A stretch of DNA of 64,000 nucleotides from an uncultured Sulfitobacter sp. Lineage in GTDB: Bacteria > Pseudomonadota > Alphaproteobacteria > Rhodobacterales > Rhodobacteraceae. This document shows positions 53,424 through 63,998 of the stretch, piece by piece. The translations under genes and the position numbers were made by a program. A model generated the notes under the pieces. That model searched no databases. It saw nothing but the letters and a program-made list of their open reading frames with translations, and was not told the origin of the DNA. The number at the start of each line of letters is the position of its first letter. The stretch's first letter is position 1. The stretch lies in assembly GCF_947499945.1 (NCBI RefSeq), contig NZ_CANMQD010000001.1, positions 1,178,001 through 1,242,000 on the forward strand, written 5' to 3'.

Positions 53424-54692
53424 TCAGCCTTTTCCTTTCCACGGCACCATCACCCGCTCGGCACCGCGCATCAGCATATCAATACCAAAACCGATGATCC
53501 CGATAAGGATGATGCCCAAGATTACGATATCCGTGTTCTGGAACTTGGACGCGACCATGATCATCATACCCGCCCCCTTCTCCGCTGCCACCAACTCGGC
53601 CGCGACAACAGTACCCCAACACACGCCCATCGCCACACGCGCACCCGTAAATATCTCGGGCAGCGAGTTGGGGATGATAACATACCGCATGATCTGCCAC
53701 TTGCTTGCCCCCAGCGAATAGGCTGCGTGCACCTTGGCAATGTTGACACCAGACACGCCCGACCGCGCCGCAATCGCCATGATCCAAAGTGCGGCAAGGA
53801 AGAGCAGGATAATCTTCCCCTTCTCCCCAATCCCCGCCCAGATAATCACCAGCGGGATCAGCGCCAGCGGCGGCACGGGGCGCATAAATTCAACAATCGG
53901 ATCAAACCAGCCACGGAACCAGTTGCTCAAACCCATGGCATAGCCAAGCGGAATACCCACAATCGCGCCACAGACAAAACCGGCCACAACACGAAACAGC
54001 GACCAGCCCAGATGGCCCAGTAGGGACGTTCCACGAAACCCCTCATCCAGTACCTTGGCCGTCCGTTCAAGAACCGCTTCGGGCGACGGCAGATACAATG
54101 GCTCCATCTGCAATCCCTTTTCAGGCGCAAAATTTGGCGTGCCTTTGTCGGAGATCGTCACCGATCCTCCTTCTATTTCCACCGTATCACCTGGCTTCAC
54201 AGGCGCGCCATTGATCGCGACAACTTTTGCACCATCAGCACGTTTGACCTCATCGTTGCGGTCAAACAGCACAAGTTCGCTGCGATATTGCGCAACGGTG
54301 ATGCTGTCATTTTTGGCGATCCCGTCACCCGGCTCTATTGCCAATGCATCGGGATTCTCTTCCCGCTCATGCACCAGCACAGACACAGTTGCCGTATCAG
54401 TCTGGCCATTGGCCGAAACCGTATAGTCAAACGATGTCTCGCCCTTGAATGGGGCAGGCGCGTGCAAAAAGCGCGGAACTAACGAGGACCCCGTAAACAT
54501 CCCCCACAACAACAACAGCGTCAGAATGGAAATAATCCCTGCCGCACGGTTGGGCCGCACTGCACTCTCGTCGCCAAAAGTAACCGTCTTGAGGGCGGTG
54601 TACCCGTCCTTGCGCACCCCAATGCGCGTAAAGATAAACGCCGCAGCAGCAAAGATGCCAACATAGACAGCCAGCAGAATGAATCCGGTCAT
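53424..54692 (-). CDS. tauC: Taurine ABC transporter permease TauC with a large inserted extracytoplasmic domain
   Basis: The C-terminal 225 residues are a standard SsuC/TauC permease ('LYLPSPEAVLERTAKVLDEGFRGTSLLGHLGWSLFRVVAGF', the 'EAA' loop 'AAYSLGASKWQIMRYVIIPNSLPEIFTGARVAMGVCWG'). The protein is 422 residues, against about 270-280 for TauC. It has an extra N-terminal helix (2-22), the usual first permease helix (about 50-68), and then some 120 inserted residues (75-197) between 'VPRFL' and 'LPSP' that include a beta-rich 'TSFDYTVSANGQTDTATVSV' segment like VCBS/cadherin-type repeats. The insert should face the periplasm, near the TauA docking site. The ATG overlaps the tauB stop by 4 nt. 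Confidence 0.9.
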   Translation of the reverse strand: MTGFILLAVYVGIFAAAAFIFTRIGVRKDGYTALKTVTFGDESAVRPNRAAGIISILTLLLLWGMFTGSSLVPRFLHAPAPFKGETSFDYTVSANGQTDTATVSVLVHEREENPDALAIEPGDGIAKNDSITVAQYRSELVLFDRNDEVKRADGAKVVAINGAPVKPGDTVEIEGGSVTISDKGTPNFAPEKGLQMEPLYLPSPEAVLERTAKVLDEGFRGTSLLGHLGWSLFRVVAGFVCGAIVGIPLGYAMGLSNWFRGWFDPIVEFMRPVPPLALIPLVIIWAGIGEKGKIILLFLAALWIMAIAARSGVSGVNIAKVHAAYSLGASKWQIMRYVIIPNSLPEIFTGARVAMGVCWGTVVAAELVAAEKGAGMMIMVASKFQNTDIVILGIILIGIIGFGIDMLMRGAERVMVPWKGKG

Positions 54693-55495
54693 GCTTTTTC
54701 CTCCGCAGTGCCCATAATCTCTTCTTCCATGTCCCAAATCATGTTCAGAATCTCTTCACGCTTAACCGAGAAATCAGGATGCTTCTTCACCTCTCGCAAA
54801 TCCGCCGCGACACCCAGCTCCGCAAATGGCAGACGATATTCTTTGTGGATGCGACCCGGACGCGGGGCCATCACAATCAACCGCTCGCCAAGAAGCAGCG
54901 CCTCTTCAACCGAGTGGGTGATCAAAATGATCGTCTTTCCCGTCTCTTTCCACAGCTTGAGCACCAGCGATTGCATCTTTTCCCGCGTCAGCGCGTCCAA
55001 TGCGCCCAGCGGCTCATCCATCAAAATCACATCGGGATCATTCGCAAGGCAACGGGCCAAAGCCACACGCTGCTGCATCCCGCCAGACAGTTCGTAAACC
55101 GCCTTTTCCTTGAAATCCTGTAGCCCTACAACGTCCAGCAGATGATTTACAATCTCTGCCTTGTCGTTGCGCGGCATCCCCTTCATCGACGGGCCAAATC
55201 CTACGTTCTCGCGCACGCTCATCCATTCGAACAATGCACCCTGCTGGAACACCATGCCGCGGTCGGCATCGGGTCCGGTAATCGTCTTGCCGTTCAGGGT
55301 CATCACACCTTCGGTCGGCGCCAGAAACCCCGCAACGATGTTCAGGAGCGTTGTCTTACCACAGCCCGACGGCCCCAGCACACTCAGCAGCTCACCCGCT
55401 TTGAGATCAAGCGATACATCCTTGAGCGCCTGCACCGATCCGCCATCTGGTAAATCAAATCGCATCGAGAGTTTATCAATGGAAAGTCCGGACAT
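54689..55495 (-). CDS. tauB: Taurine ABC transporter ATP-binding protein TauB
   Basis: The 268-residue ATPase has Walker A (GPSGCGKTT, 41-49), 'GMVFQQGALFEWMSVRENV', signature 'ELSGGMQQRVALARCLA', Walker B 'VILMDEPLGALD' and H-loop 'ITHSVEEALLLGERLIVM', the pattern of the nitrate/sulfonate/taurine importers. It energizes uptake through TauC. A terminator-like hairpin separates it from tauA, which may reduce its expression relative to the binding protein. Confidence 0.95.
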   Translation of the reverse strand: MSGLSIDKLSMRFDLPDGGSVQALKDVSLDLKAGELLSVLGPSGCGKTTLLNIVAGFLAPTEGVMTLNGKTITGPDADRGMVFQQGALFEWMSVRENVGFGPSMKGMPRNDKAEIVNHLLDVVGLQDFKEKAVYELSGGMQQRVALARCLANDPDVILMDEPLGALDALTREKMQSLVLKLWKETGKTIILITHSVEEALLLGERLIVMAPRPGRIHKEYRLPFAELGVAADLREVKKHPDFSVKREEILNMIWDMEEEIMGTAEEKA

Positions 55496-55628: not shown

Positions 55629-56636
55629 TTACATGCCTTTTACGGCCATCAACGGGCCTGTGTTCACAGTGCCTTCATAGCTTTCCAGCGCGCCGTCAAT
55701 AGAGCCACTTTCAACGAAGACCTGAGCAACGCCACCCATGAAGGTCTGGCTGCCGCCGCCGAACCACTTGGCGCTCAACTGCTCTTCAACGGACGGGAAG
55801 GAGAAGCCCGCCAGCGTCTCTGCTGTGGCCGCTTCGTCCATGCCTGCATCTTTTGCAATCACGGGCAGCATTTTGGCCGCATCATCACCACCGGCATTCC
55901 ACATGGCGTTGGCATCTGCCGTCACCTTCAGGAACTTTGCCAGCTCGTCACCGTTCTCGGCAACGTAAGATGCGGGTGCGGATGTCACGTCAAACACCAA
56001 GATACCAAGTTCTTCTTTCTCGGCACCAGTCAGCAGGATATTACCGGATTCTTTCATGCGACGCAGTGCACCACCCCAACCACATGCCATGTCTACGGCA
56101 CCTTGGCTCAGCGCTGCTGCACCTTCGGCAGGGGCCATATCAACAACGGACATGCCTGTAACATCCACGCCAAAGTGGCCCATCTGCTTAAGAAAGCCAT
56201 AGTGCGCGGCAGTACCAAGTGGCACAGCCACCTTCTTACCTGCCAGCTCCGCTGCGGAAGTCTTGTCGATCTCCAGACCGGAAGCCACAACGCAGTTGTC
56301 ATTCTCGGAATAGGATACTGCAACGTCAACAATCTGGATATCCTGACCACCCGATGTCGCCACAACGAACGGCGGCACACCTTGGCTTACGGAAATCTGC
56401 ACGTCACCAGACGCCATGGCCGCAGACATCGCAACGCCGCTGTCAAAGCTGACCCAGTTAACTTTCTTGCCCAAAGCCTCGTCATACGTGCCATTCACTT
56501 TTGCAAACTGAAACGGCATGGGCCACTCAAGGAAATAACCGACTGTGATCTCACCATGGCCATCTGCAAATGCAGCCGTGGATGCCAGTGACATTACTGC
56601 GCCAGCGACGAACGCGCTTACTGTTTTCTTCATCAT
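55629..56636 (-). CDS. tauA: Taurine ABC transporter substrate-binding protein TauA
   Basis: The 335-residue protein has a signal peptide ('MMKKTVSAFVAGAVMSLASTAAFA') and a NMT1/SsuA-type periplasmic binding domain: 'ITVGYFLEWPMPFQFAKVNGTYDEALG', 'SGDVQISVSQGVPPFVVATSGG', 'AAELAGKKVAVPLGTAAHYGFLKQM'. It captures taurine for TauBC. Two adjacent ATGs (56636, 56633) fit a GGGAGA site; I use the first. It is transcribed away from tpa across a long regulatory region, which matches a taurine-controlled divergent unit. Confidence 0.94.
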   Translation of the reverse strand: MMKKTVSAFVAGAVMSLASTAAFADGHGEITVGYFLEWPMPFQFAKVNGTYDEALGKKVNWVSFDSGVAMSAAMASGDVQISVSQGVPPFVVATSGGQDIQIVDVAVSYSENDNCVVASGLEIDKTSAAELAGKKVAVPLGTAAHYGFLKQMGHFGVDVTGMSVVDMAPAEGAAALSQGAVDMACGWGGALRRMKESGNILLTGAEKEELGILVFDVTSAPASYVAENGDELAKFLKVTADANAMWNAGGDDAAKMLPVIAKDAGMDEAATAETLAGFSFPSVEEQLSAKWFGGGSQTFMGGVAQVFVESGSIDGALESYEGTVNTGPLMAVKGM

Positions 56637-57314
56637 ATTAGAATTCTCCCAGTTTCATTTTTGCCCGGCTCCTTAACAGAACTCGGGATCGTAGGTTGTG
56701 TTTTCACAACTGACGCAGGCATCCTGTGCGATGCCCGAACCACTTGCAATACACTTTGCGGCGATACCCAGACACGAGGCCTGCATACACGCAGATCGTT
56801 TTCCGTCCCGTTCAAACGGTCAACAGCAGTTTCGTTCCTCCCCGAGGCATTGACGAAAAGACGGCCCTGCCCCGCGACGTTTGCACATCAACCATGCACA
56901 ACGCCCGAACTTGCAGCACTCTGGGCTTTGCACACAGAAAACAAATAACCAGTTTCTCCCCCGCCATGAGTCCAGTCACCGCACCTCTCTTTTGCTTTCA
57001 ATCCCGCTTACACAGGCAAAGCTGCCGACCTCGACCAGAACCCGCACTGCGCACCGCCAAAAGTGATCTCACCGATCCAGCGGCCGTGCATTTGCAGCAC
57101 CGTCTCAATCGTGCCGTACCTCCCTAATTCCACCTCCAAAACATCTCGCCAAATCCGCCGTAAACAAGGGCTTTTACAGCAACGACAAAACTGGCCATAC
57201 GCTTCCCTCCCTGCTGGCCCTATTTCCAGAATGAAATTCCCCGTCTAACATAGTGTGAATCAGGGAAGGCACTGCTGATTTCCCATTCTCCTATCCAATC
57301 GAAAGGTCGCCTCC
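56637..57314. other. Long intergenic region between tauA and tpa, no gene supported
   Basis: Short frames occur but none has family resemblance or a good ribosome site. Near tauA it holds two inverted repeats, GTTGTG-TTTT-CACAAC (56695-56710) and GGCATC-CTGTGC-GATGCC (56718-56735), which would be hairpins in the tauA leader. Near tpa it holds the CTGGCC direct repeats listed separately. No T tract follows the hairpins. Confidence 0.6.
57191..57223 (+). promoter_or_regulatory. Candidate TauR operator upstream of tpa
   Basis: CTGGCCATAC (57191-57200) and CTGGCCCTAT (57214-57223) are direct repeats 23 bp apart, 92-124 bp before the tpa start. Closely related pairs lie upstream of xsc and tauR. 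MocR-type regulators typically bind two direct repeats, and the TauR box of Rhodobacter capsulatus is, as I recall, a CTGGACYTAA repeat. Confidence 0.75.
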
Positions 57315-58706
57315 ATGGACGGTACATTTAACGAAAATGACATTTCCCGCATCGTAGAGGCGGACCGCGCCCATGTCTGGCACCACCTGAGCCAGCATAA
57401 ACCCTATGAAACAACCGATCCGCGCATCATCGTTGAGGGCAAAGGCATGCGCGTCTGGGACCAGAACGGCAAAGAGCATCTTGATGCCGTCTCGGGCGGT
57501 GTGTGGACCGTCAACGTAGGCTACGGCCGCGAATCAATCGCCAATGCGGTCCGTGACCAATTGATCAAATTGAACTACTTCGCAGGCTCCGCAGGTTCGA
57601 TCCCCGGCTCCATCTTCTCCGAAATGCTGATCGACAAGATGCCCGGGCTGAGCCGCGTCTACTTCTGCAACTCCGGCTCGGAGGCAAACGAAAAGGGCTT
57701 CAAAATGGTCCGCCAGATCGCGCACAAGCGGTTCGGCGGCGTGAAGCACAAGATCCTTTACCGCGACCGCGACTATCACGGCACAACGATCACCACTCTC
57801 TCTGCAGGGGGTCAGGACGAACGCGGCGCACAATACGGCCCCTTCACACCGGGCTTCATCCGCGTCCCCCACTGCCTTGAGTACCGCAGCTTTGAGCAGG
57901 ATGGCGCGCCCGTTGAAGGTTACGGCGTCTGGGCCGCCAACCAGATCGAAAAAGTCATCCTTGAAGAAGGCCCCGAAACTGTCGGCGCCCTCTGCCTTGA
58001 GCCCGTGACCGCTGGCGGCGGCGTCATCACGCCCCCCGATGGTTATTGGGAGCGTATCCGCGAGATTTGCGACCAATATGACATCCTCCTGCACATCGAT
58101 GAAGTCGTCTGCGGCTTGGGCCGCACAGGTACGTGGTTCGGCTACCAGCACTACGGGATCAAACCTGACATGGTGACAATGGCCAAAGGGGTGGCATCAG
58201 GCTACGCCGCCATCGCCTGCCTCGTGACCACCGAAGATGTCTTTGACAAGTTCAAGGACGACGCCTCCGATCCCATGAACTACTTCCGCGACATCTCCAC
58301 CTTTGGCGGCTGCACTGCCGGCCCCGCGGCCGCAATCGAGAACATGAAGATCATCGAGCGCGAAGGCCTGCTGCAAAACACCGTCGACATGGGCGACTAC
58401 ATGACAGGCCGCCTGCATGAGCTTGCGGACAAATACCATGTCATCGGCGATGTTCGCTCCAAGGGTCTATTCCTCGGTGCCGAACTGGTCACAGATCGCG
58501 AGAGCAAAACACCCGTGGCCGAGAAACTGGTTCAGGCAGTCGTGGGCGATTGCATGCAGCAGGGCGTTGTCATTGGTGCGACCAATCGTTCTCTGCCAGG
58601 CAAGAACAACACCCTGTGCTTCTCCCCCGCGCTCATCGCAACAAAAGACGACATCGACCAGATCATCGACGCTGTCGACGGCGCCATGGGCCGTGTTTTC
58701 GGCTAA
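57315..58706 (+). CDS. tpa: Taurine--pyruvate aminotransferase
   Basis: The 463-residue class III aminotransferase has 'FCNSGSEANEKGFKMVR', 'LLHIDEVVCGLGRTGTWFG' and the PLP lysine K291 ('VTMAKGVASGYAAIACLVT'). The context of tauABC, tauR and xsc assigns it to taurine rather than to GABA or other amines. It transfers the amino group of taurine to pyruvate, yielding sulfoacetaldehyde and L-alanine in the cytoplasm. AAAGG lies 9-12 nt before the ATG. A pair of TauR-like repeats lies upstream, and a strong terminator follows. Confidence 0.96.
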   Translation: MDGTFNENDISRIVEADRAHVWHHLSQHKPYETTDPRIIVEGKGMRVWDQNGKEHLDAVSGGVWTVNVGYGRESIANAVRDQLIKLNYFAGSAGSIPGSIFSEMLIDKMPGLSRVYFCNSGSEANEKGFKMVRQIAHKRFGGVKHKILYRDRDYHGTTITTLSAGGQDERGAQYGPFTPGFIRVPHCLEYRSFEQDGAPVEGYGVWAANQIEKVILEEGPETVGALCLEPVTAGGGVITPPDGYWERIREICDQYDILLHIDEVVCGLGRTGTWFGYQHYGIKPDMVTMAKGVASGYAAIACLVTTEDVFDKFKDDASDPMNYFRDISTFGGCTAGPAAAIENMKIIEREGLLQNTVDMGDYMTGRLHELADKYHVIGDVRSKGLFLGAELVTDRESKTPVAEKLVQAVVGDCMQQGVVIGATNRSLPGKNNTLCFSPALIATKDDIDQIIDAVDGAMGRVFG

Positions 58707-58731
58707 ACTTGCAAAATTCCGCTCATCAGAC

Positions 58732-58759
58732 AGGCCTTCCTCGCAGGGAAGGCCTTTTT
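58732..58759 (+). terminator. Intrinsic terminator of tpa
   Basis: AGGCCTTCC/GGAAGGCCT forms a perfect 9-bp stem with a short loop and continues into TTTTT. It lies 26 bp after the tpa stop. Confidence 0.9.
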
Positions 58760-58826
58760 CGTATCTACAGATCAGGAACCTTCTAATATCCCGCACGTTA
58801 AGAACTGATAGATAAGGAATACTCTT

Positions 58827-59084
58827 ATGAAAAAATTCGCACTCGTTATCCCGATGATCGCCGCCCTCGCGGCTTGCGACACACCTGACGGCACCCTCGC
58901 TGCATCAACTGTGACAGGAGCAATCATCGGCGCAAGCGTGTCTGGTAGCAACGACAAAGCAAAAGGGGCCATAATCGGTGGCGCTGCTGGCTTAGCCGCA
59001 GGAACGCTTATCAACCGTGGCCAAAACGGCAACTGCACATATCAACGCCCAAACGGCACGACATACATCGCAGCCTGCCCGTAA
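58827..59084 (+). CDS. Small lipoprotein with glycine-zipper domain
   Basis: The 85-residue protein has a lipoprotein signal with lipobox LAAC ('MKKFALVIPMIAALAAC') and a glycine zipper ('GAIIGASVSGSNDKAKGAIIGGAAGLAAGTLI'), like small outer-membrane or periplasmic surface antigens. Two cysteines near the C terminus could form a disulfide. It stands between two terminators, so it is an independent unit unrelated to taurine genes on either side. Confidence 0.82.
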   Translation: MKKFALVIPMIAALAACDTPDGTLAASTVTGAIIGASVSGSNDKAKGAIIGGAAGLAAGTLINRGQNGNCTYQRPNGTTYIAACP

Positions 59085-59106
59085 CCGCAACGCCTGTTAA
59101 AACGAG

Positions 59107-59137
59107 AAAAGGCCCTGTTGAAAAACAGGGCCTTTTT
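59107..59137 (+). terminator. Intrinsic terminator of the lipoprotein gene
   Basis: AGGCCCTGTT/AACAGGGCCT is a long perfect stem with a GAAA loop, flanked by A and T runs, so it may act in both directions. Confidence 0.92.
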
Positions 59138-59208
59138 CCATTCCACACGGAGCTCTTACTCTTTGGTAGCCTAAACACCCCACATAATTGAATGCCAACT
59201 ACGCTTGT

Positions 59209-59403
59209 TCACATACCTCTGATACAGCAGAATGACCGTAAGAGCACCGAGCAAGACAGACAAAAAGCTTTCAATCCGACATAGAAAAGCGCGATCGTCC
59301 CGACTGCGAACAACGGAACAAACGCGATCATCCGATTTCGCCATGCATTGCGTATTGCGGCCTCTCGTTCAGGGTCTGTATTTTTCTCAATTATTTCAAC
59401 CAT
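59209..59403 (-). CDS. Possible small membrane protein
   Basis: The 64-residue frame ('MVEIIEKNTDPEREAAIRNAWRNRMIAFVPLFAVGTIALFYVGL...') looks coding up to the membrane helix, after which the sequence turns into a Cys/Leu/Arg run that may reflect a frameshift. No family is recognised. It could be real, decayed, or a chance frame. Confidence 0.35.
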   Translation of the reverse strand: MVEIIEKNTDPEREAAIRNAWRNRMIAFVPLFAVGTIALFYVGLKAFCLSCSVLLRSFCCIRGM

Positions 59404-59513
59404 CCATCACGTTATCCGATCTTAGGTGGCATCACCTCTTAGGGCAACGCGCTCCATCATCCCTTATTATTTCCAAGATTCACCATTTGTAGAATAATTC
59501 AATTCGCCCTAGG

Positions 59514-59545
59514 GTAAGGCCAGTTGATTCACCAATTAAGTCCAA
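59514..59545 (-). promoter_or_regulatory. Candidate TauR operator at the tauR promoter
   Basis: On the minus strand TTGGACTTAA (59545-59536) and CTGGCCTTAC (59523-59514) are direct repeats 22 bp apart, matching the CTGGNCNTAN pairs at tpa and xsc. They end 15 bp before the tauR ATG, a position suited to autoregulation, and point opposite to tauR. Confidence 0.6.
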
Positions 59546-59560
59546 ATAAAAAGGCACCCC

Positions 59561-61045
59561 ATGGCCCTTCCCGTCGAGACATTCTTCCTCCAGACAGATG
59601 CCCAAGGCACATTGCAATCACAGATTCAGCAGATGATTGCACAGGGGATATTGTCGGGCCGTTTCCAGCGCGGGGAAAAGCTACCTTCAACCAGAAAACT
59701 CGCTGTGCATCTGGGCGTTAGCCGCATCACAGTGACCATCGCCTACACCGAACTTCTGGCCTCTGATTACCTCAGCTCTAAAGGGCGCTCAGGATATTTC
59801 GTATCAGAGAATGCGCCCTCGCCTCCCGTCTTTACTCCGGGTCCCGACACGCAGGATGCTGTCGATTGGACCCGTGCCATCGGGCAGCGGTTTAGTGGCG
59901 GCGTCACTCCCAGCAAGCCGCAAGACTGGTCAAAATACCGCTATCCCTTTGTTTATGGTCAGGCTGATAAAACCTTGTTTGACCACGCAAACTGGCGGCT
60001 TTGTGCACTTCAAGCTTTGGGTCAACGGGACTTTAACTCGATGACAAATGACTATTATGATCAGGACGATCCACAACTGATTGAATTCATCGCCCGCCAT
60101 ACGCTGCCCCGTCGTGGCATCACCGCAGCGCCTGAACAAATTTTGATTACCCTCGGTGCCCAGAACGCATTATGGCTGACAGCGCAGGTGCTGCTTACCC
60201 AGCGTCGTCGCGCCGCTCTTGAAGACCCCTGCTATCACGCCCTGCGCGATATCCTGATCCAATCACGGTGCCACGTAACACCAGTCCGCGTTGATCAGGA
60301 CGGCCTTCCACCCGAGGCAGTTCCACCCGATACGGATGTCATTTTCACTACCCCCAGCCATCAATGCCCCACAAATGCAACAATGCCCATGGCGCGACGA
60401 AGTGCCTTGCTGGAGCGTGCCCGAGAGATAGACGCAATCATTGTGGAGGACGATTACGAATTCGAAACGTCATTTTTGCGCCCGCCGTCCCCCGCGCTCA
60501 AATCTCTCGATACCGATGGCCGCGTGATCTATGTCGGCAGCTTCTCCAAATCTTTGTTTCCGGGCCTGCGCCTTGGCTATCTGGTCGGGTCCGAACCATT
60601 TATACGCGAGGCCCGCGCCTTACGTGCGTCAGTTTTGCGTCACCCGCCCGGCCACATCCAGCGCACAGCCTCCTACTTTCTGTCCCTCGGCCACTATGAT
60701 GCGCTGGTCCGTCGCATGAGCAACGCGCTGCATGAACGCCGCACAAGAATGGAAGAAGTTATCGCGCAAACAGGTCTGATCATCGCAGGTCAGGGCGCAC
60801 ACGGTGGCTCCTCATTTTGGATGCGTGCACCTGAAGATGTGGATACGAATACACTCGCCACACGCTTACGCGCCTGTGGCGTATTGATCGAACCTGGGCA
60901 GTCCTTTTTCGGCGGTGAAGAACAGCCACAAAACTTCTACCGCCTCGGCTATTCCTCCATCCCAACAAGTCGCATAACCGACGGGCTGCAAGCTCTGGCA
61001 TCAGAAATTGATGCCATGACAAAAGCTGGTCCTATTCCAGTATAA
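59561..61045 (+). CDS. tauR: MocR-family PLP-dependent regulator of taurine genes
   Basis: The 494-residue protein joins a GntR-type winged helix ('LQSQIQQMIAQGILSGRFQRGEKLPSTRKLAVHLGVSRITVTIAYTELL') to an aminotransferase fold I domain with the PLP lysine in 'VIYVGSFSKSLFPGLRLGYL'. This is the MocR/GabR architecture. Its place between tpa and xsc identifies it as TauR, which in Rhodobacter capsulatus activates taurine genes. The C-terminal codons overlap the first repeat of the operator in front of xsc. The start has AAAAAGG upstream. Confidence 0.95.
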   Translation: MALPVETFFLQTDAQGTLQSQIQQMIAQGILSGRFQRGEKLPSTRKLAVHLGVSRITVTIAYTELLASDYLSSKGRSGYFVSENAPSPPVFTPGPDTQDAVDWTRAIGQRFSGGVTPSKPQDWSKYRYPFVYGQADKTLFDHANWRLCALQALGQRDFNSMTNDYYDQDDPQLIEFIARHTLPRRGITAAPEQILITLGAQNALWLTAQVLLTQRRRAALEDPCYHALRDILIQSRCHVTPVRVDQDGLPPEAVPPDTDVIFTTPSHQCPTNATMPMARRSALLERAREIDAIIVEDDYEFETSFLRPPSPALKSLDTDGRVIYVGSFSKSLFPGLRLGYLVGSEPFIREARALRASVLRHPPGHIQRTASYFLSLGHYDALVRRMSNALHERRTRMEEVIAQTGLIIAGQGAHGGSSFWMRAPEDVDTNTLATRLRACGVLIEPGQSFFGGEEQPQNFYRLGYSSIPTSRITDGLQALASEIDAMTKAGPIPV

Positions 61046-61058
61046 TAACTGGCCCTAA
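61026..61058 (+). promoter_or_regulatory. Candidate TauR operator upstream of xsc
   Basis: CTGGTCCTAT (61026-61035) and CTGGCCCTAA (61049-61058) are direct repeats 23 bp apart, 72-104 bp before xsc. Spacing, orientation and distance to the start match the pair upstream of tpa. The first repeat lies in the last codons of tauR. Confidence 0.75.
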
Positions 61059-61129
61059 CCTTATCCACGCCAAGCGCCTAAATTGCCCCAAACCAGATTC
61101 GCATTCATTTAATCCAAGGATCACCTGCT

Positions 61130-62908
61130 ATGAAGATGACCACCGAAGAAGCATTCGTAAAAACGCTCCAGCGTCACGGCATCCAACATGCTTTTGGCAT
61201 TATTGGCTCTGCCATGATGCCGATCTCCGACATTTTCCCAAAGGCAGGGATCAAATTCTGGGACTGTGCGCACGAAGGCTCCGCCGGTATGATGTCTGAC
61301 GGCTACACCCGCGCCACTGGCAAAATGTCGATGATGATCGCGCAAAACGGTCCGGGCATTACCAACTTTGTGACGGCTGTTAAAACAGCATATTGGAACC
61401 ATACGCCTTTACTTTTGGTCACGCCCCAAGCTGCGAACAAGACGATCGGTCAGGGTGGCTTCCAAGAGATGGAGCAGATGAACCTCTTTGCCGATTGTGT
61501 CGCCTACCAAGAGGAAGTGCGCGATCCCTCCCGCATCGCCGAAACGCTGAACCGCGTGATCATGCAGGCCAAACGCGCCTCTGGCCCCGCTCAGATCAAC
61601 GTCCCGCGCGATTTCTGGACCCAAGTCATCGACATCGAAATTCCAGAAGTGGTCGAATTGGAAGTCCCTCAAGGCGGCGACAATGCGATCACACGCGCCG
61701 CCGAAATGCTCTCCGAAGCGAAGTTCCCCGTGATCCTGAACGGCGCTGGTGTAGTGCTAGCACAGGGCGGCATCGAGGCTTCCCGCGTGCTTGCCGAACG
61801 GCTCGACGCACCTGTTTGCGTGGGCTACCAGCACAACGATGCCTTTCCCGGAAACCACCCGCTGTTCGCAGGTCCGCTTGGCTATAACGGCTCAAAAGCT
61901 GGAATGGAGCTAATCTCGAAAGCGGACGTGGTCCTGTGCCTCGGCACGCGCCTCAACCCCTTCTCGACCCTGCCGGGATACGGCATTGATTACTGGCCCA
62001 CAGACGCCAAAATCATTCAGGTCGACATCAACCCCGACCGCATCGGTCTAACCAAAAAGGTCACCGTCGGCATCGTCGGGGACGCCGCAAAAGTGGCCAC
62101 TTCCATCACTGCAAAACTGGCAGAAACAGCAGGCGATGCAGGTCGCAAAGAGCGCACCGCCCTAATCGCACAAACCAAATCCGCTTGGGCGCAGGAACTC
62201 ACCTCCATGACAGACGAGGCCGACGATCCGGGCACAGACTGGAACGTGCGCGCCCGCGCGGCCAAGCCTGACTGGATGAGCCCCCGCATGGCATGGCGCG
62301 CGATCCAGCAAGCACTGCCTGTCGAGGCGATTATCTCCTCCGACATCGGCAACAACTGCGCCATCGGTAACGCCTACCCCTCCTTCAATGAGGGCCGCAA
62401 ATACCTTGCACCCGGTCTGTTCGGCCCCTGCGGCTACGGCCTGCCCGCCATCGTTGGTGCCAAGATCGGCCAGCCTGACGTGCCTGTTGTCGGTTTCGCT
62501 GGTGACGGCGCTTTCGGCATCGCGGTCAATGAGTTGACGGCGATCGGCCGCGGCGACTGGCCGCCAGTGACCCAAATCGTCTTCCGCAACTACCAGTGGG
62601 GCGCGGAAAAGCGCAACTCGACACTATGGTTTGACGACAACTTTGTTGGCACGGAGCTTGACGAAGACGTGTCATATGCAGGCATCGCACGGGCCTGTGG
62701 CCTGCAAGGCGTTGTTGCCCGCACACAAGAAGAGCTGACAGCGGCGCTGGCCAAGGCACTCGACGACCAGATGAACCACGGAAAAACCACGCTGATCGAA
62801 GCGATGATCAATCAGGAACTTGGCGATCCCTTCCGCCGTGATGCGATGAAACAGCCCGTTCAAGTTGCAGGTATCGACCCTGCCGACATGCGCGAGCAGG
62901 CGGTATAA
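61130..62908 (+). CDS. xsc: Sulfoacetaldehyde acetyltransferase
   Basis: The 592-residue thiamine-diphosphate enzyme begins 'MKMTTEEAFVKTLQRHGIQHAFGIIGSAMMPISDIFPKAGI', the Xsc signature, and has the ThDP-binding 'VGFAGDGAFGIAVNELTAIG'. It converts sulfoacetaldehyde and phosphate to acetyl phosphate and sulfite, the key desulfonation step. The start at 61130 has AAGGA upstream; ATG at 61136 is possible. It has its own candidate TauR-controlled promoter and is followed 4 nt later by ackA. Confidence 0.97.
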   Translation: MKMTTEEAFVKTLQRHGIQHAFGIIGSAMMPISDIFPKAGIKFWDCAHEGSAGMMSDGYTRATGKMSMMIAQNGPGITNFVTAVKTAYWNHTPLLLVTPQAANKTIGQGGFQEMEQMNLFADCVAYQEEVRDPSRIAETLNRVIMQAKRASGPAQINVPRDFWTQVIDIEIPEVVELEVPQGGDNAITRAAEMLSEAKFPVILNGAGVVLAQGGIEASRVLAERLDAPVCVGYQHNDAFPGNHPLFAGPLGYNGSKAGMELISKADVVLCLGTRLNPFSTLPGYGIDYWPTDAKIIQVDINPDRIGLTKKVTVGIVGDAAKVATSITAKLAETAGDAGRKERTALIAQTKSAWAQELTSMTDEADDPGTDWNVRARAAKPDWMSPRMAWRAIQQALPVEAIISSDIGNNCAIGNAYPSFNEGRKYLAPGLFGPCGYGLPAIVGAKIGQPDVPVVGFAGDGAFGIAVNELTAIGRGDWPPVTQIVFRNYQWGAEKRNSTLWFDDNFVGTELDEDVSYAGIARACGLQGVVARTQEELTAALAKALDDQMNHGKTTLIEAMINQELGDPFRRDAMKQPVQVAGIDPADMREQAV

Positions 62909-62912
62909 GCCT

Positions 62913-63998
62913 TTGGCTCAATCGCCCATATTGGTGATGAACGCAGGATCGTCATCAATCAAGACAGCGCTCTTTGACGGGGCGCTGTCTGAACTTCTCC
63001 GCATCGAGGCGACAGGCATCGGCGGACAAGGCGCGGTGAAGATCGGTGAAACGTCGCAAAGCGTCGACCTTCCCGACAACGCCAGCGCCCTATCAACAAT
63101 CATCGACGCACTTGGGAGCCAAGGCATCGCCCTCACCGATCTGCGCTGTGTCGCCCACCGCGTTGTGCACGGCGGCACTGGCCTGACGACGGCCCAGCGG
63201 ATCACCCCGCACATCCGCCAAGAGATTGCCGACTGCATCCCGCTGGCTCCCTTGCACAATCCTCACCACCTTGCTGCAATCGACGCCGTGCAGCAGGCCG
63301 CCCCTGATCTGCCCCAATGCGCCAGCTTTGACACCGCCTTTCACGCGACCATCCCAGCGCTCGCCCATCGCTTTGCCCTGCCCGACCAGCCTGACCTTGC
63401 TGGCCTGCGCCGCTACGGGTTTCACGGTACCAGCTATGCCGCCCTCATCCATCGCTTGCCCGATCAAAGCGGCATACTGCCCCCCCGCCTGCTCGCACTC
63501 CACCTTGGCAATGGTGCATCGCTTTGTGCGATAAAGGACGGCCAATCCATCGCCACAACCATGGGCTACTCCCCGCTGGGCGGTCTGACGATGGGTACAC
63601 GCGCGGGCGAGATTGACCCAGGTGCTGTGCTGGCACTGGCACGGCTGCGCGGGCTGGACGCGGCCGATCACCTGCTCCACCACCAGTCGGGCCTGCTCGG
63701 CCTATCGGGTCTCAGCGCCGACATGCGCACCTTGGAAAGCAGCGATACACCTGAAGCGCATTTCGCAATCGCGCATTTCTGCTACTGGATTGGTCGTCAG
63801 GCGGGCTCCATGATTGCCGCTCTCGGCGGGCTGGACGCCATCGCCTTTACAGGTGGCATCGGTGAGAAATCGGCCCGCGTGCGGGACACTGTCCTTGAGA
63901 ATTTGCGCTGGATGGGTGACGTTCCTTCCTACATCGTTCCAGCCGAAGAAGAACTTCATATTGCACGCGAGGCACGCGACCTGCTCGACCAGACATAG
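62913..63998 (+). CDS. ackA: Acetate kinase
   Basis: The 361-residue protein is acetate kinase: 'ILVMNAGSSSIKTALFDG', 'VAHRVVHGGTGLT', 'FDTAFHATIP', 'RYGFHGTSYAA', 'LHLGNGASLCAI', 'MGTRAGEIDPG' and 'FTGGIGEKSARVR'. It turns acetyl phosphate from Xsc into acetate and ATP. It is about 35-40 residues shorter than usual enzymes but has all motifs and ends 2 bp before the window edge. The TTG at 62913 gives the family start; an ATG at 62865 inside xsc is an alternative. In related clusters pta follows, and it may lie just outside. Confidence 0.93.
   Translation: MAQSPILVMNAGSSSIKTALFDGALSELLRIEATGIGGQGAVKIGETSQSVDLPDNASALSTIIDALGSQGIALTDLRCVAHRVVHGGTGLTTAQRITPHIRQEIADCIPLAPLHNPHHLAAIDAVQQAAPDLPQCASFDTAFHATIPALAHRFALPDQPDLAGLRRYGFHGTSYAALIHRLPDQSGILPPRLLALHLGNGASLCAIKDGQSIATTMGYSPLGGLTMGTRAGEIDPGAVLALARLRGLDAADHLLHHQSGLLGLSGLSADMRTLESSDTPEAHFAIAHFCYWIGRQAGSMIAALGGLDAIAFTGGIGEKSARVRDTVLENLRWMGDVPSYIVPAEEELHIAREARDLLDQT

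Follow-up and report, generated by a model that had tools for sequence, protein, structure and literature searches.

The taurine gene cluster in a 64,000-nucleotide stretch of an uncultured Sulfitobacter genome (NZ_CANMQD010000001.1, positions 1,178,001 to 1,242,000; hereafter the window) carries three pairs of direct repeats, one each ahead of tpa, xsc and the regulator gene tauR. These pairs are very probably TauR operators, through which TauR would activate tpa and xsc and repress its own gene, whose message may be leaderless. The tpa and xsc pairs face their genes, and the tauR pair is reversed and interlocked with a conserved promoter. The conserved layout offers a testable picture in which one regulator turns on the degradation genes and limits itself, and it points to where one might look for control of tauA and for an exporter gene, unlinked to the cluster, that may belong to the regulon.

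Predicted operator pairs in the taurine cluster

Taurine is described as a widespread bacterial source of carbon, nitrogen and sulfur, and TauR as an activator of taurine genes, in PMC5320631. The same paper gives, citing Wiethaus 2008, the R. capsulatus TauR consensus direct repeat CTGGACYTAA, and lists tpa, xsc, pta or ackA, and tauABC in reported TauR regulons. At three places in the window we find two direct repeats like this consensus about two helical turns apart. The predicted pair of tpa (57191..57222, plus strand) consists of CTGGCCATA (57191-57199) and CTGGCCCTA (57214-57222), separated by 14 bp (period 23), with boxes that start 124 and 101 bp ahead of the ATG at 57315. The predicted pair of xsc (61026..61057, plus strand) has the same spacing and period, with CTGGTCCTA at 61026-61034 and CTGGCCCTA at 61049-61057; its boxes start 104 and 81 bp ahead of the ATG at 61130, with the end of the pair 72 bp short of the ATG base, and box 1 lies inside the 3' end of tauR. 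The predicted pair of tauR is reversed (59515..59545, minus strand) and consists of TTGGACTTA (59545-59537) and CTGGCCTTA (59523-59515), separated by 13 bp (period 22), 16-46 bp ahead of the tauR ATG and with one mismatch to CTGGNCNTA. An earlier note on this DNA had given the box starts, orientations and periods of the three pairs and the distances of 72-124 bp to tpa and xsc, all of which were correct on re-scanning; its claim of a word shared by all six boxes holds for five, which are exact CTGGNCNTA, the box at 59545 starting with TTGG and not CTGG.

The single word CTGGNCNTA is not rare, occurring 14 times in the window against 3.7 expected from shuffles; as an exact pair it occurs twice, against none in 100 shuffles. 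We also carried out the genome scan that the earlier note had proposed (4,145,890 bases, 24 contigs). In the whole 4.15-Mb genome, exact CTGGNCNTA pairs at period 22-23 are present only at tpa and xsc, and the backwards pattern gives none. The concern that such pairs might be frequent at random thus falls away for good sites, with two exact pairs, and is borne out for loose ones (up to two mismatches), which stand at background: 19 at period 22 against 28 for the backwards control, and 22 at period 23 against 23. A half-site matrix was trained on the tpa and xsc boxes of relatives with the window excluded. Among the 41 loose genome sites the three reported pairs take ranks 1-3 (28.2, 27.8 and 27.5), the tauR pair being third by a very narrow margin and having the top score among the 19 at period 22. 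Ranks 4 and 5 (23.7 and 21.3) both fall within open frames; the loose matches at C7:18150 and C1:1773823, which are in open frames, were taken as chance and set aside as targets. Within the 64-kb window, where pairs with a half-site below -2 were discarded, xsc scores 28.4, tauR 28.0 and tpa 27.7, and the next pair passing the filter 9.4 (the matrix applied to tauA and to the 41 sites differs from this one in pseudocount). A profile of the activator pair (R1) run on the same genome, with 150 of 1033 candidates scored, returned tpa and xsc and no other site at E up to 10.

Conservation in TauR relatives

The relative set comprised the window and 80 loci of TauR relatives, the top 80 of 584 (71-89% identity); because the loci are related, the counts are not independent trials. 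Periods 22 and 23 only were scanned, at up to two mismatches, and a locus whose fetched stretch lacked tpa or xsc was left out of that gene's count. Rows with a missing start were also excluded: L076 and L077 from the tpa count, and L019, whose forward "match" is its xsc pair, from the tauR count. With the window included, a forward pair lies upstream of tpa in 54/55 usable loci and upstream of xsc in 70/70, which, together with the match to the reported motif, fits the activation by TauR that the earlier note had suggested for these sites. The tauR pair is present upstream in 78/80 usable loci and is reversed, at period 22, in every one, placed 44 bp (9 loci), 45 bp (52) or 46 bp (17) from the ATG. 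The best xsc pairs are all at period 23 (70/70), and the tpa pairs divide into 12 at period 22 and 42 at period 23. The true misses are L046 and L067 for tauR and L014 for tpa. When upstream regions were resampled from dinucleotide counts, a pair in either orientation appeared in 0.18-0.25%.

A distant set of 40 stretches, handpicked from the low-identity end of the list, was scanned at periods 21-24; here L161 is indexed one base off, the starts of L165 (TTG) and L196 (GTG) are uncertain, and L178 ends at a contig edge. Among the 29 distant tauR loci of 50-66% identity, a reversed pair with up to two mismatches occurs in 18 and a forward pair in none. Thirteen of the 18 lie 32-37 bp from the start, three at 43-45 bp and two elsewhere, and 15/18 have period 22. 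The remotest TauR copies (45-50%) have a reversed pair in 7/11. As a separate observation, the reversed pair in the distant loci (L161-L200) is often about 12 bp, roughly one helical turn, nearer the ATG, and several of these loci have a -10-like TATAG inside the box adjoining the ATG.

The putative tauR promoter and proposed autocontrol

The tauR operator overlaps a putative promoter (59524..59552, plus strand) composed of TTGATT (59524-59529), a 17-bp spacer and TAAAAA (59547-59552), so that promoter and operator bases are interleaved. When upstream regions of relatives are aligned on the pair, they read TAAnnCCAGATTGC-n(8)-TAAGTCCAGTnTAnnCT, and TTG and TA stand at the exact -35/-10 distance (17-bp spacer) in 67/77 relatives. 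These bases are 87-99% conserved beside the tauR boxes, compared with 24-63% next to those of tpa and xsc. Since the reversed pair is interlocked with a conserved -35 and -10, it fits autorepression, in line with the earlier suggestion of autocontrol, and the layout would be that of an operator that excludes polymerase. The usable tauR starts are ATG in 80/80 loci, and a generic promoter search of the last 80 bp places the end of the -10 element 5-9 nt ahead of this ATG in 44/80. The window's own -10 (TAAAAA) ends 8 bp ahead of the ATG, and the distance is about 6-8 bp; the message would therefore begin at or next to the ATG, and we infer from this spacing a leaderless tauR transcript.

Several observations weigh against this interpretation. 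The generic search puts the tauR promoter elsewhere within the last 80 bp in 36/80 loci. The proposed promoter is weak in the window, where it matches the consensus at 8/12 bases and its -35 is displaced by one base; a scan of the window favours hexamers at 59470-59498 (9/12), in a stretch that is unconserved in relatives. The tauR pair is missing in 11/29 distant orthologs. A model of the tauR operator-promoter (R2) missed the window's own site in a genome scan with 150 of 1001 candidates scored; its three weak partial matches in the same genome were not used further. In addition, reversed pairs precede a TauE-family gene, described below, that would be expected to be activated, so orientation alone need not mean repression.

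At xsc, a putative -10 (TAAATT, 61079..61084, plus strand) sits 21 bp past box 2, with its TA..tT columns conserved in relatives, and the -35 position, which is unlike TTGACA, would therefore touch box 2. No clear -10 was seen at tpa.

We propose that TauR, as a MocR-type regulator, would bind a pair of direct half-sites spaced by about two helical turns. In the case of tpa and xsc, the gene-oriented pair would lie immediately ahead of the core promoter, in contact with the weak -35 position at xsc, and TauR together with taurine would bring RNA polymerase to tpa and xsc-ackA. At tauR the half-sites would border the -35 and take up the spacer as far as the -10, such that bound TauR would block polymerase and limit its own level. 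We infer TauR binding, the response to taurine and the sign of control at each gene from the sites, their conservation and their geometry.

Alternative explanations

It is unlikely that TauR instead activates its own gene through the reversed pair in a positive feedback loop. The published role of TauR as an activator (PMC5320631) favours this, and the sequence is compatible with self-activation; however, the boxes fill the -35 to -10 interval in 67/77 relatives, where a bound protein normally blocks polymerase. PMC5320631 also describes MocR regulators as frequently auto-repressors.

Use of the sites by another MocR or GntR regulator in place of TauR is rather less probable. The assignment to TauR leans on work published for a different genus, a TGT or TGG group is common to most MocR motifs (PMC5320631), and the genome encodes four other weak relatives, the top one 38% identical over 155 residues. 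Against this, the sites surround tauR itself, recur at corresponding positions in relatives and agree with the TauR consensus from the literature.

We give marginally less credence again to the possibility that the reversed pair serves a divergent minus-strand frame of 64 amino acids (59209-59403) and not tauR. The pair faces this frame from 112-142 bp ahead, as the tpa and xsc pairs face their genes, but the frame has no NCBIfam match. Moreover, when the nearest upstream frame was picked mechanically in 79 loci, it ran in the direction of tauR in 60 and against it in 19, while the pair stayed 44-46 bp from the ATG; a divergent small gene was judged an unlikely target from this 60/19 division. 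Finally, although single copies of the word are common and loose pairs do not exceed background, there is next to no likelihood that the pairs are chance repeats, given the place and orientation kept in relatives, the low resampled frequency and matrix scores far higher than elsewhere in the window.

Candidate sites at tauA and a TauE-family gene

The earlier note had found no clear pair near tauA. This calls for a qualification, as a degenerate TauR-like candidate is present at 56944..56975 on the minus strand (CTGGACTCA, 14 bp, CTGGTTATT; period 23), 339 bp ahead of the tauA ATG (56636) and co-oriented with tauA. It scores 9.5, whereas none of 740 resampled sequences exceeds 8.2, the highest value among them. 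Where the gap between tpa and tauA is wide (at least 478 bp, 13 of 37 loci), a same-orientation pair above the 99% resampled level is found in 12/13 loci, several of which are close kin of one another, and it lies 277-344 bp ahead of tauA. Where the gap is narrow, a same-orientation tauA pair occurs in 1/24 loci, and in 24/24 the distance from tauA to the tpa pair itself, which is reversed relative to tauA, is 284-333 bp. On the simplest reading, compact loci would share one operator and separated genes would gain a weaker one of their own. Two further features of the tauA leader were seen: a conserved TTGATC...GGAT element in narrow-gap relatives, and a GGCATC/GATGCC hairpin-like repeat in the window (about 56640-56900).

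Outside the taurine cluster, on another contig of the same genome, a TauE/SafE-family exporter gene (C2:189134-190042, minus strand, PF01925) follows an ATP-binding cassette (ABC) permease gene (PF02653). A weak yet conserved reversed pair of period 23 with two mismatches (C2:190089-190120; L120 1501-1532) lies 78 bp upstream of it. Across the genus, a TauE-gene pair with up to three mismatches occurs in 22/30 fetched loci, and TauR in 30/30 genomes. The pair is missing in four TauR-less genomes, yet also in four further TauR-bearing ones, and of the 8 misses among the 30 fetched loci 7 fall in those of lower similarity (82-86%), so that presence and absence may simply reflect relatedness. For genus and family together (58 TauE loci), 20 have a pair at up to two mismatches (0.1% resampled) and 29 at up to three (1.9% resampled). 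The TauE-gene pair may be used by TauR or by another MocR regulator.

A broader scheme, which we consider doubtful, is a geometric code in which pairs of period 23 upstream of the -35 activate and pairs of period 22 interlocked with the promoter repress, in a regulon that includes the unlinked TauE-family exporter. If it were true, spacing and phase would set the sign of control.

Gene cluster and TauR protein

The cluster order is tauC, tauB and tauA on the minus strand, then tpa, a small glycine-zipper protein, tauR, xsc and ackA on the plus strand. The genes for the taurine-type ABC ATPase and permease (tauB and tauC, 53424..55495, minus strand) have PRK11248 and PRK10160 as top matches, both under cut-off, and the taurine-type ABC substrate-binding protein gene tauA (55629..56636, minus strand) matches TIGR01729 at E 7.5e-45, also under the curated cut-off. 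The tpa-like gene (57315..58706, plus strand) encodes a class-III aminotransferase (PF00202); because no NCBIfam match reaches cut-off among those listed (25 of 69), it is named taurine:pyruvate aminotransferase from its gene context. A terminator-like hairpin downstream of tpa (58732..58755, plus strand) would insulate tauR from the promoter of tpa, but hairpins of this kind are no commoner in the region than expected by chance (5 against 5.2) and are weak evidence alone. The small glycine-zipper protein between tpa and tauR (58827-59084) has similar frames in nine other loci and Pfam matches below cut-off. The xsc gene (61130..62908, plus strand), for sulfoacetaldehyde acetyltransferase, matches TIGR03457 and PRK07525 above cut-off. 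The acetate kinase gene ackA (62865..63998, plus strand) matches TIGR00016 at 295.9 bits (cut-off 293.4) from residue 21, and its true start is probably later than 62865. Because the ackA frame overlaps the 3' end of xsc, the two probably form one operon.

The product of tauR (59561..61045, plus strand) has both MocR domains, a GntR winged helix (PF00392 at residues 19-81) and an aminotransferase-like domain (PF00155 at 150-475), which places it in the MocR subfamily. The GabR chains 4n0b and 4mgr are its nearest solved structures (E about 1e-42, aligned over 17-455), and the alignment of its GSFSKS with GabR GTFSKS suggests that the pyridoxal phosphate lysine is kept. The tauR gene is flanked by the tpa-like gene and xsc, with tauABC-like genes near, as in many relatives, and the three closest TauR matches from named genomes among the 80 loci are Sulfitobacter assemblies (88-89% identity), which places the genome in or near Sulfitobacter. 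No TauR model is present among the NCBIfam matches listed for this protein (25 of 51). A PdxR model is passed (355.7, cut-off 320), but the name PdxR was not adopted because of the gene context.

Comparison with known systems

As the window motif is the reported TauR direct repeat, the system itself is already known. It resembles the TauR regulon described for Rhodobacter capsulatus and other Proteobacteria (Wiethaus 2008; Suvorova and Rodionov 2016) in regulator type, motif and kinds of target. It differs from the R. capsulatus regulon in that tauR has its own reversed period-22 operator over its promoter, which the available part of PMC5320631 does not describe. No paper on a reversed tauR operator was found, judged by titles and abstract openings, and Wiethaus 2008 may describe one. 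The reversed tauR pair interlocked with a conserved promoter is an added detail of a known switch, for which priority is not claimed.

GabR of Bacillus subtilis, the nearest solved structure, is likewise a MocR-type protein; it works on a divergent gene pair, whereas here tpa, xsc and tauR have separate pairs. PMC5320631 describes GabR as a direct-repeat binder that represses its own promoter while activating its target genes. The putative tauR layout also resembles that of the leaderless, auto-repressed acuR gene of Rhodobacter sphaeroides, in which, according to PMC3017554, the operator lies over a TTGATT/TATTAT promoter and the transcript runs from the ATG with no Shine-Dalgarno site. AcuR differs in that it belongs to the TetR family of repressors and has an inverted repeat as its operator, and the acuR start was mapped by rapid amplification of cDNA ends (RACE; PMC3017554), whereas the tauR start is deduced from the position of its putative promoter.

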